A stretch of 64,000 nucleotides of DNA from positions 1 to 64,000 of the forward strand of contig CALVNZ010000005.1 of NCBI GenBank assembly GCA_944350115.1, given 5' to 3'. A program made the position numbers and the translations under genes. Positions within the stretch are counted from its first letter, which is position 1, and each line of letters starts with the position of its first letter. The notes under the pieces are model-generated. The model was given only the letters and a program-made list of their open reading frames with translations, was not told where the DNA came from and made no database searches. Shown here piece after piece: positions 868 to 5,315 of the stretch. The stretch is from an uncultured Clostridia bacterium. GTDB taxonomy: Bacteria; Bacillota; Clostridia; Christensenellales; UBA1242.

Positions 868-3228
868 ATGATTTTTAAAAAATATTTTAATAAAGACGCA
901 GACAGCGCAAATCTTTTTGCTGAGGAATTTCATATTTCTCCATTTGTTATGGAGATAATTTTGTCGCGTGGGATTAACACGCGTGAAAAAATTGAAGAGT
1001 TTTTAAATCCTAAAGTTTTTATTGATCCATTTTTGCTGGACGGAGTTAAAGAATTTTGTGAAAGAATTGAGTTGGCATCTCAGTTAGGGGATAAAGTTGT
1101 AATTTTTGGCGACTATGATGTTGATGGAGTTTGTGCCACCGCGATTATGATTAAAGCTTTAATGAGAAAAGGAATTAAAGCCAATTATTACATGCCTAAT
1201 AGATATGTTGACGGATATGGTTTGACAAAAGAGACTATTGACAAAGTTATAGACAAGTTTAATCCAAACTTAATCATTACTGTGGATTGTGGTATTTCAT
1301 GCCATGATGAAGTCGAGTATGCGGCATCACGGGGCGTTGAAATCATCGTGACAGATCATCATGAGCTTCCTGAAATTTTGCCAGAGGGTTTAGTTATAAA
1401 TGCCAAAAAAGAAGGGCAAAAGTTCGGTTTTAAGGAATTGTGTGGAGCGGGGCTTGCTTATAAATTAAGCGAAGCGCTTTTGGGGCAAAAAGGTGTGGAA
1501 GATTTGCTTCCTATTGCAGCCATTGCGACTATTGCAGACATAGTCCCTCTTTTAAGCGAGAACAGAACTATTGTCACAAAAGGCCTCAAACTTTTTGAAA
1601 GACATTTGCCAATAGGGCTAAAGGCATTGATGAAAGAAAATAAAGTTTCACTTTCAAAACCTTCTTCATCTGCGATATCTTTTAAAATTTCACCAAAACT
1701 TAATGCTTCTGGAAGAATGGGTGATGCTTCTGATTCATTAAATTTGATTTTAGAGTCTGACCCTGTGAAAGTTAAAAAATACATCGAAAAAATAAATGGG
1801 CATAATTTAAAACGGCAGGCTTTGTGCAACAAGATTTATGATGAGGCAATTAAAGCGCTTGAAAGAATTGACATGAAAAAGATTCGCGTGATCACGCTTG
1901 CTTCAAAGAAATGGGATCAAGGTGTGCTTGGAATAGTTTGTTCAAGGCTTGTTGAAAAATTTCATCGACCTGTGTTTTTGTTTGCGCAAGAGGGAGATGT
2001 TTTAAAGGGGTCGGGTAGAAGCATTGATGACATTAACATTCATTCCGTTTTATCTTCTTTAAGTGATATTTTAGTGACTTATGGTGGACATTCTATGGCG
2101 GCTGGTGTGACAATTAAACTTTCAGATTACAAGGATTTTACAAACAGAATAAATGCTGTTATGTTTGAAAATGTAAATGAACAAGCGTTTATGCCGATCA
2201 CTTATTATGATTCTGACATTTCACTTGATCAAATTGATGATGTATTGTTAAAGGAGCTTGCTTTGTTGGAGCCTTGTGGTTGTGCTAATCCTACGCCAAG
2301 ATTTAAAATTACTTCGCAAGAATTGTCTTTGCAACCAATGAAAAGATTTCCAGAACACGCAGAAATCAAAATTGGAGATTTCCCATTAATTTATTTTAAT
2401 TACACACAAATGGCAAAAATTTTGCGTTTTTCAAGGCAAAAAAGTTTTATTTTTGAATTTCAAGAAGGAGAAAGAAAAGGGATTATAAATTATTTTGATG
2501 GCGGGTCATTTATCGCGCAAGACGCAAATAACTATGTTTTTCCTGTTGAAGTTGAACAATTAAAATACGAAAAATCTTCGCCCGCTAAATATAATTTTTA
2601 TCAAAAGGAAAACCTTTTGGAATTTGTTTCTTCAACATTTTCCACGGTTTTTGGCACAGCTTTTGTTGCGTTTAATGCTTATGATTATGTGGATTTTGCC
2701 AAAAATTATTCTGGACAAAGTTTGTTTTACTATGGGATTTGTGATAATTTTTGTGCAGGGTATAATAGTTTGTTATTATCGCCAGAAGGAGTGGATTGGG
2801 TCAAAAACTTTTCAAAAATTGTCTTTTTAAATCCAATTTTAGAAGAAGGCTATATTAGTGAAATTAACAAAATCACATCAGCTGAAATTTTTGTCCCTAT
2901 GGACAAAACTCCGAACATGAATAGATATAAACTCTTAAATTTATCGCGTGAAAATTTTGGTAAAATTTATTCTATTCTTGCTTCAAAAACAGGCGTGTGT
3001 TTTTCAGATGTTTTTGATTGCTTTGAAAAACTTTTCGCTTTGAAAAAGTACAAATTTATAGATGTTTATGTTGCAATTCAAGTGTTTAAAGAATTAAATT
3101 TACTTATTATGGAAGAAGGTTTGTTTTTTAAGTTTAAAACCGTTAAGAATATTAAGAGAAATTTGACAGATTCAAAAATTTATAATAAACTGAGTTTGAT
3201 AAAAAATATTTATAAGGATGAGAAATGA
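868..3228 (+). CDS. recJ: Single-stranded-DNA-specific exonuclease RecJ
   Basis: RecJ is a 5'-3' exonuclease on single-stranded DNA that works in recombination and mismatch repair. The DHH-family metal motifs are visible: GDYDVDG (about residue 80), TVDCGIS, and TDHHELPE (about 160). The DHHA1 motif GGHSMAAG is near residue 415. At 786 aa it is longer than the roughly 570-aa core, and the C-terminal extension is poorly conserved. I chose ATG 868 because an upstream in-frame TTG (856) sits in the -10 box. The stop overlaps the rel start (ATGA), so the two are translationally coupled. The recJ-rel order is common in Clostridia and Bacilli. Confidence 0.95.
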   Translation: MIFKKYFNKDADSANLFAEEFHISPFVMEIILSRGINTREKIEEFLNPKVFIDPFLLDGVKEFCERIELASQLGDKVVIFGDYDVDGVCATAIMIKALMRKGIKANYYMPNRYVDGYGLTKETIDKVIDKFNPNLIITVDCGISCHDEVEYAASRGVEIIVTDHHELPEILPEGLVINAKKEGQKFGFKELCGAGLAYKLSEALLGQKGVEDLLPIAAIATIADIVPLLSENRTIVTKGLKLFERHLPIGLKALMKENKVSLSKPSSSAISFKISPKLNASGRMGDASDSLNLILESDPVKVKKYIEKINGHNLKRQALCNKIYDEAIKALERIDMKKIRVITLASKKWDQGVLGIVCSRLVEKFHRPVFLFAQEGDVLKGSGRSIDDINIHSVLSSLSDILVTYGGHSMAAGVTIKLSDYKDFTNRINAVMFENVNEQAFMPITYYDSDISLDQIDDVLLKELALLEPCGCANPTPRFKITSQELSLQPMKRFPEHAEIKIGDFPLIYFNYTQMAKILRFSRQKSFIFEFQEGERKGIINYFDGGSFIAQDANNYVFPVEVEQLKYEKSSPAKYNFYQKENLLEFVSSTFSTVFGTAFVAFNAYDYVDFAKNYSGQSLFYYGICDNFCAGYNSLLLSPEGVDWVKNFSKIVFLNPILEEGYISEINKITSAEIFVPMDKTPNMNRYKLLNLSRENFGKIYSILASKTGVCFSDVFDCFEKLFALKKYKFIDVYVAIQVFKELNLLIMEEGLFFKFKTVKNIKRNLTDSKIYNKLSLIKNIYKDEK

Positions 3229-5315
3229 AAAAAACTTTGGTGTTTAAGGAAATTTTATCCTCATATAAACTTCAAGAAAAAGATAAAATTTTAATTTTAA
3301 AACTTTTAGATGATAAAATAGATTTTGATAGAATTGATGAGATTCTTGATTTTATGACGGAACTTAAACTTGATAAAAGCTCACTGATAGGTTTTTTGGC
3401 ATACCAACTTTATAAAGTTGATCAAGAACGCGCTGAAAGTTTGCTTAAAGAATTGACTAAAGATGAACTTAAAATTTTTGAAGGTTTCAAAAGTTTGAAA
3501 GAAATGAGATATCTTACAAGAACTGAAGAAGTTGATGATATTAGGCGATTGTTTTTGGGGCTTGGCAAAGACTTGCGAGTGGTTATTATTAAACTTGCAG
3601 GCATATTGTATGATGTCAAACATTTGAAAGAACCATTAAGCGAAAAAGACAAGGACTTTGTTTCTAATGTCAAAGAAATTTTTGCTCCTTTGGCAGAAAG
3701 ACTTGGGCTTTCTACTATGAAATCTATAATGGAAGATTATTGTTTTAGATATCAAGATCCTAAAATGTACAATATGCTTGTTAATTCAATCGAACTTAAA
3801 AAAGATGAAAATGACATGCAAATTGAAATAACTAAATTTCGGTTGCAAAAAATATTAGATGAACTTGGTATAAAAGGAGAAATTCAAGCAAGACAAAAAC
3901 ATGTTTCTTCAATTTTTAGAAAAATAAAAACTCAAAATGTGACGCTTGCACAAATTTATGATTTAGTAGCGATGCGAGTTTTAGTCAATACTGTTGAAGA
4001 ATGTTATGCTGTTTTTGGCAAAATTCACTCAATATATAAACCTATGCAGGGAAGAGTTAAAGATTATATTTCAAATCCAAAACCAAACGGCTATCAAACT
4101 TTGCATACAACTGTCATTGTTGAAAATCAAAGACCACTTGAAATTCAAATTCGCACTTTTGATATGCACAAAAATTGCGAGTATGGTGTTGCTGCGCATT
4201 GGATGTACAAAGAAAAACGCGACAAAATGGCAAAGCTTGATCGAAAGATAAGTTGGTTTAGAGAGATTATGGAGAAAGCACAAAATTATTCATCAGAAGA
4301 TTTTGTGGAATCTTTAAAAACAGATCTTTACACTGGCGAAATTTTTGTTCAAACGCCAAAAGGGAAGGTTTTGGAATTTCCAGTTGGAGCAACTGTGATT
4401 GATTTTGCTTATTCAATCCATTCAGACATTGGAAATCATTGTGTTGGTGGAAAAATAAACAACATCATGAAGCCACTTTTCACAGAACTTAAAAATGGCG
4501 ATGTTGTTGAAATCATCACAAATCCAAATTCAAAAGGACCGTCAAGAGATTGGTTAAACCATGTTAAAACTTCCTCTGCGCGTGGCAAAATTAAATCTTT
4601 CTTCAAAACCGAAATGAAAGAAGAAAACATTGCCAATGGTAAAACAATGTTTGAAGAAGCGGTTAGAAACAGACAATTCCTGTCATCTCAACTTCTTGAA
4701 GAAAAATATATCGAAGAACTTTTGTTCAAATATTCAATGGATTCAATGGATGAGCTTTATGCTGCAATAGGCTCGGGCTCTTTGGTGGCTGCGCAAGTTG
4801 CAGGAAGATTTATTGCTTTATATTTAAAAGATCATAACTTACTAAAAAAACGAAATGAATCTATTAAGATAAAAGAAAATAATGATGGAGTCATTGTGGA
4901 TGGCACAACGGGGCTTCTAGTTAGATATGCGGGCTGTTGTCACCCTGTGGCTGGCGATGATATTGTTGGCTACATTTCACAAGGCAAGGGTGTTACTATT
5001 CACAGAAAGGATTGTTTAAATTTAAAATACTTGGATCCTATGCGAATAGTAAACGTCGAATGGGAAGAAAAAGCACAAAGAGATTTTATAATCGAAATCA
5101 AACTTATCGCTGAAAAAACGCCAACAATTTTAAATAAAATTACTTCAAACATAACCGCTTCTAAAATTTCGTTGCGTGCTTTTGAAGCAAAAGAAACTTC
5201 TGACCAAATAGAGTGCAATATCATTGTTTTTGTGAAAAGTCGTGATGAAGTTGAAAATATTGTCAACATGCTTTCACAAATCAATGGTGTGAAAAAAGTG
5301 ACAAGGATAAATTGA
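3225..5315 (+). CDS. Rel-type (p)ppGpp synthetase with degenerate hydrolase domain
   Basis: This is the long RelA/SpoT homologue, 696 aa, for the stringent-response alarmone. The synthetase domain is intact, with the RVKD motif at about 277 followed by the PKPNGYQTLH motif and EIQIRT. It is followed by TGS (about 370-435), a Cys/His-containing region and a C-terminal ACT domain. The N-terminal hydrolase domain is shortened and has lost its signature. The HDVVED position reads AYQLYK (59-64), and the ADRLHN motif reads AGILYD (125-130), so the Mn-binding His and Asp residues are gone. By inference it makes but cannot degrade (p)ppGpp. It overlaps recJ (ATGA) and hemZ (TGATG), so it lies in one operon with them. 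Confidence 0.93.
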   Translation: MKKTLVFKEILSSYKLQEKDKILILKLLDDKIDFDRIDEILDFMTELKLDKSSLIGFLAYQLYKVDQERAESLLKELTKDELKIFEGFKSLKEMRYLTRTEEVDDIRRLFLGLGKDLRVVIIKLAGILYDVKHLKEPLSEKDKDFVSNVKEIFAPLAERLGLSTMKSIMEDYCFRYQDPKMYNMLVNSIELKKDENDMQIEITKFRLQKILDELGIKGEIQARQKHVSSIFRKIKTQNVTLAQIYDLVAMRVLVNTVEECYAVFGKIHSIYKPMQGRVKDYISNPKPNGYQTLHTTVIVENQRPLEIQIRTFDMHKNCEYGVAAHWMYKEKRDKMAKLDRKISWFREIMEKAQNYSSEDFVESLKTDLYTGEIFVQTPKGKVLEFPVGATVIDFAYSIHSDIGNHCVGGKINNIMKPLFTELKNGDVVEIITNPNSKGPSRDWLNHVKTSSARGKIKSFFKTEMKEENIANGKTMFEEAVRNRQFLSSQLLEEKYIEELLFKYSMDSMDELYAAIGSGSLVAAQVAGRFIALYLKDHNLLKKRNESIKIKENNDGVIVDGTTGLLVRYAGCCHPVAGDDIVGYISQGKGVTIHRKDCLNLKYLDPMRIVNVEWEEKAQRDFIIEIKLIAEKTPTILNKITSNITASKISLRAFEAKETSDQIECNIIVFVKSRDEVENIVNMLSQINGVKKVTRIN

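Follow-up and report, generated by a model that had tools for sequence, protein, structure and literature searches.

The window analyzed here is a stretch of 64,000 nucleotides from an uncultured Clostridia bacterium, and it carries a rel gene on the forward strand at positions 3225 to 5315. Open reading frame analysis and profile searches indicate that rel encodes a 696-residue long RSH protein comprising a pseudo-hydrolase (pseudo-HD) domain, a (p)ppGpp synthetase domain, a TGS domain, a helical and zinc-finger region, and an ACT domain. The product scores 539 bits against the long RSH profile TIGR00691 (cut-off 499.2), and the Pfam domains HD_4 (PF13328), RelA_SpoT (PF04607), TGS (PF02824) and ACT (PF13291) are matched in that order, all above cut-off. 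The pseudo-hydrolase domain spans residues 1–160 (3225 to 3704; PF13328 profile match 22–155, 55.6 bits) and is followed by the synthetase (3717 to 4274; 130.9 bits) and the TGS domain with its conserved histidine (4341 to 4520; 73.8 bits). Residues C571, C572, H593 and C597 mark the zinc-finger region (4911 to 5024), and the ACT domain lies at 5076 to 5306 (45 bits). The ATG at 3225 overlaps the stop codon of recJ (ATGA) and has a AAGGATGAG-like ribosome site, which rules out a miscalled start as the reason for the short N-terminus; the open frame permits no upstream extension. The source genome (865,569 bases, 99% complete) belongs to UBA1242 (Christensenellales), for which reduced genomes have been described (PMC12306168). 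The gene provides the only PF04607 match in that genome, and its product is thus the sole long Rel and the sole predicted alarmone synthetase there.

The N-terminal domain lacks the residue set of bifunctional Rel hydrolases (R44, H53, H77, D78, E81, D82, D144 and N148). Residues were mapped by alignment to B. subtilis Rel (6yxa, the solved structure nearest in sequence, E 5e-127), to intact Rels of the same family, and to E. coli RelA and SpoT. The R44 motif is absent. The Mn ligand H53 is replaced by R36 (3330 to 3332), the H77-D78 pair of the HD motif by Y60-Q61 (3402 to 3407), and E81-D82 by K64-V65 (3414 to 3419). AGILYD (residues 125–130; 3597 to 3614) stands in place of ADRLHN, with D144 replaced by G126 and N148 by D130. 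A preliminary description of this DNA had proposed a dismantled and shortened hydrolase domain and had read the AGILYD substitution in the same way, and these points are borne out by the alignments. Its placement of the HD pair at AY (59–60) was one residue off, and the shortening is modest, at 13–17 residues fewer ahead of the motif. None of the three alignments, including that to B. subtilis Rel, places catalytic HD residues elsewhere in the N-terminus. The HD triad cannot be hidden elsewhere within residues 1–160 because H133 is the sole histidine there.

The AlphaFold model of the window Rel keeps the HD and synthetase folds with a mean pLDDT of 84. Within the pseudo-HD domain, pLDDT is about 90–96 over most of the chain and lower near residues 90–120. 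Foldseek returned solved Rel and SpoT structures as the best matches for this model, the top ones being of the bifunctional Rel type. By alignment and model, the domain has kept its fold and lost every catalytic residue, which confirms the original observation. Each of the 83 dead-type Rels that we aligned from the genus shows the same loss, and as a pattern of sequence it lies far beyond chance. In a subset of these proteins covering 40 species, the new residues R36, Q61, K64 and D130 do not vary. Such a conserved set in the former pocket, together with the many genomes that have no other hydrolase, could be taken to mean that the domain still hydrolyzes alarmone through an unusual site, either metal-independent or rewired. 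We consider this very improbable, since the metal ligands are all gone, a single histidine remains in 160 residues, and the replaced positions are the Mn- and water-binding ones of Rel. Rels of two other genera, g33 and g40, moreover have different replacements.

The synthetase half of the window Rel is intact at R223, K225, D246, R277-V-K-D280, E306 and Q308. The RVKD motif (residues 277–280; 4053 to 4064) is invariant in the clade and is of the RXKD type found in bifunctional enzymes, and the preliminary description was right on this point as on the integrity of the synthetase, TGS and ACT domains. Synthetase motifs are near-invariant across the 83 dead-type Rels, whose synthetase domains share a mean pairwise identity of 63%, and TGS motifs are also conserved across the genus. 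The work of Sajish et al., as summarized where PMC4708007 cites it, links RXKD to bifunctional enzymes and EXDD to synthetases of the RelA type. The dead-hydrolase Rel clade separates the RXKD motif from bifunctionality.

We asked whether rel is a pseudogene decaying under genome reduction, with the stringent response on its way out. The source genome is only 866 kb, and the HD domain is evolving faster than the synthetase. In a survey of the family, 53 of 147 genomes from many genera (30 of the 107 near-complete ones) had no RelA_SpoT domain match, and the whole (p)ppGpp system therefore seems to have been lost repeatedly. However, the open frame is full-length in nearly all members of the genus, the synthetase is well conserved, and the new residues of the pseudo-HD domain are themselves invariant. 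Values of pN/pS are 0.04–0.34 for the pseudo-HD domain and 0–0.11 for the synthetase, well below 1 in both, so both domains are under purifying selection and neither is decaying. On these values we rejected the pseudogene reading, which we regard as scarcely credible.

A dead HD domain combined with an intact synthetase, TGS, zinc-finger and ACT/RRM region is also the arrangement of RelA of the beta- and gamma-proteobacteria (E. coli RelA, RelA[hS]). By its residues the window Rel would share this combination, and the conserved TGS histidine and zinc-finger residues suggest that it may also share the ribosome-dependent activation of RelA. The details differ. E. coli RelA carries FP and ER where the window Rel carries YQ and GI, and the EXDD motif of RelA-type enzymes is RVKD in the window protein. 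The window Rel scores 420.3 bits against the RelA equivalog, for which the cut-off is 728. In the tree, the partner of E. coli RelA is E. coli SpoT (91/91; recovered in 94% of bootstrap trees) and the dead clade stands apart, though the E. coli branches are long. We therefore rejected orthology to proteobacterial RelA on the equivalog score and the tree, and the grouping of E. coli RelA with E. coli SpoT implies, subject to those long branches, that the loss of the hydrolase is convergent. The window Rel has the same domain order and recJ-linked locus as the bifunctional Rel of Bacillota, but it has lost the hydrolase active site entirely.

Rel is present in 100 of 101 sampled genomes of the genus and is nearly always of the dead type; G182 and G232 carry an intact-type Rel. 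The dead-hydrolase Rel is common to this genus and several related genera. A tree of synthetase and TGS sequences requires two origins of the dead state in the family, one in a large clade of many genera and the other in genus g40. In g40 (L062, L069, L034) the separate loss of hydrolase residues leaves partial motifs, LLHDAVSR or LICRVPDK. We found no earlier report of a hydrolase-dead Rel from this lineage in the open-access literature. The division of synthesis and hydrolysis between separate proteins, familiar from proteobacterial RelA and SpoT, has evolved independently in these Clostridia.

A whole-genome HD_4 search of the source genome identified exactly one protein besides Rel, a predicted 177-residue Mesh1-type small alarmone hydrolase (SAH) encoded on the reverse strand of contig C9 (G000:C9:3416-3946, equivalent to L002:1438-1968). 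A second HD hydrolase elsewhere in the genome was what the preliminary description had suggested looking for. The gene is on a different contig from rel and is not linked to it. The protein consists of a single HD_4 domain (73 bits) with fly Mesh1 as its best solved relative (3nqw, E 1.6e-20). All of its catalytic residues are present (R29, H38, H62-D63, E66-D67, D125 and N129) and are invariant in 19 aligned HD hydrolases, as expected for Mesh1 and the bacterial SAHs, which share the same R, H, HD, ED, D and N residues. A glycosyltransferase gene lies on one side and a DUF2953-ytfJ-dacF block on the other. This differs from the toxSAS antitoxin arrangement, as the gene is chromosomal, syntenic in one clade and has no adjacent synthetase; the only synthetase domain of the source genome is on another contig.

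We consider it very probable, on the sequence evidence, that the window Rel is a synthetase-only, ribosome-associated long RSH with a dead scaffold HD domain, and that its product is removed in trans by the SAH encoded on contig C9. The intact synthetase would make (p)ppGpp, probably triggered by the TGS and C-terminal regions sensing deacylated tRNA on the ribosome. Selection would maintain the pseudo-HD domain, most likely because it serves the synthetase as an allosteric scaffold. The SAH would be the physiological partner that removes (p)ppGpp. As with proteobacterial RelA, hydrolysis would come from another protein, in this case an SAH rather than SpoT.

Within the genus, the SAH gene has a patchy distribution. 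The syntenic slot is occupied in four relatives (G175, G205, G100 and G223), with a contig end removing the upstream neighbor in G175 and the downstream neighbor in G223. Six species of the sister group (G059, G235, G034, G080, G151 and G167) have nothing in this slot; their flanking genes are contiguous, and a gap in the assembly is therefore rejected as the reason why these six lack the SAH. The Rel tree places the SAH carriers, including the window species, in one clade (100/98) that also holds G215, whose SAH slot was not assembled. The five empty-slot species in the tree (G235 was left out) form the sister of this clade (99/97). SAH was therefore gained or lost once, and the dead Rel is older. 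Since the same Rel persists in the sister species, which have no SAH, the two need not occur as a pair.

We extended the search to 55 near-complete genomes of the genus (completeness of at least 95%, contamination of no more than 5%). An SAH-like protein was found in 18 and a protein with HD and TGS domains in six; the remaining 31 have a dead Rel and no detectable RSH-type hydrolase, in genomes that are mostly metagenome-assembled and in searches that began with a loose first pass. A profile built from the 19 HD hydrolases recovered the source-genome SAH at E 4e-66 and returned nothing credible from 30 of the 31. In some relatives within the genus (L095, L096, L089) a different SAH-like HD_4 protein is encoded between prfB and tsaD. 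These proteins may not act on alarmones, in which case the hydrolase-less set would only grow. The preliminary description had argued that another hydrolase must remove the alarmone. The source genome fits this, as it encodes a separate predicted SAH, but the 31 congeners do not support it as a general rule.

The sister species that carry the same Rel without SAH raise the alternative that most alarmone removal falls to an enzyme outside the RSH family (a Nudix pyrophosphatase, a different HD phosphohydrolase or a member of an unknown family) and that the SAH serves another substrate. Enzymes of the Mesh1 type are also able to use NADPH or other nucleotides as substrates. A ppGpp-degrading Nudix enzyme is known in Thermus, according to the work that PMC3153485 cites. 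The source genome has no Nudix protein at all yet encodes a textbook SAH, and none was found in the SAH-less genomes G034 (100% complete), G080, G151, G235 and G224. We therefore rejected Nudix proteins as a general substitute. The other PF01966 HD proteins are, in most genomes, RNase Y and one weak HD protein of about 200 residues, with others sporadic. The weak HD protein, on contig C7 in the source genome, recurs in nearly all genus genomes searched and might be offered as the eraser, but its similarity to HD domains is slight, it has no HDxxED pattern, and it is not identifiable as an alarmone hydrolase. Overall, we judge removal by a non-RSH enzyme unlikely for the source genome and favor the SAH. 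The gene for the weak HD protein adjoins rsmA (L007; G000:C7:10324-13641), and its neighbor in the source genome encodes a protein whose sequence includes a long acidic proline repeat (PEDPEAPEDPEAP).

Atkinson et al. (2011) did not find a synthetase (RelA) without a hydrolase (SpoT or SAH) in bacteria and inferred that this state is prohibited (PMC3153485). On sequence evidence, the 31 genomes without a detectable RSH-type hydrolase conflict with this rule. Loss of spoT can be survived in E. coli when the relA allele is a non-inactivating one (PMC4154780). A synthetase that is weak or tightly gated is therefore one possible explanation, and an unrecognized hydrolase is another. We see an evenly balanced case for the proposal that most species of the genus run a constrained, synthesis-only stringent response without an RSH-type hydrolase, in which either the eraser belongs to an unrecognized family or no dedicated hydrolase is needed to clear (p)ppGpp. 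If true, either option breaks the rule that bacteria have no RelA without SpoT or SAH. The genus thus provides about 30 near-complete genomes in which a functional synthetase appears to be retained and no RSH hydrolase is present. Looking for a missing eraser is feasible in them because they encode few genes, and some have neither an SAH nor a Nudix protein.

Hydrolase-only RSH proteins occur among the relatives. Genus g33 (L011, L016, L017, L023, L025, L030, L031) carries a second long Rel with an intact HD domain and a dead synthetase, in which R223 is replaced by W, K225 by E, D246 by G and E306 by K. From their residues, this protein and the dead-HD Rel of the same genus appear to constitute an independent RelA/SpoT-like pair in Clostridia. 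Other relatives encode the 480-residue HD-TGS protein (L035:1420-2859; L037:604-2043, reverse strand; L094, L102, L103, L104), which is not present in the source genome. It has an intact HD domain, a TGS domain with the histidine, and a fold resembling the synthetase without a RelA_SpoT match. Its model is only moderate (mean pLDDT 69), and the best Foldseek match is full-length SpoT 7qpr, which we take to be the hydrolase-only SpoT of Acinetobacter baumannii. Like the second Rel of g33 and the HD-TGS protein, 7qpr combines an intact HD domain with a dead pseudo-synthetase; the HD-TGS protein differs from it in having no C-terminal domains and in its gene adjoining a regulator gene. Several genera (for example G002, G016 and G042) have the HD-TGS protein without a RelA_SpoT synthetase in the same genome. 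At all readable loci (L035, L037, L094, L102 and L103), the HD-TGS gene follows a cognate XRE-type regulator gene.
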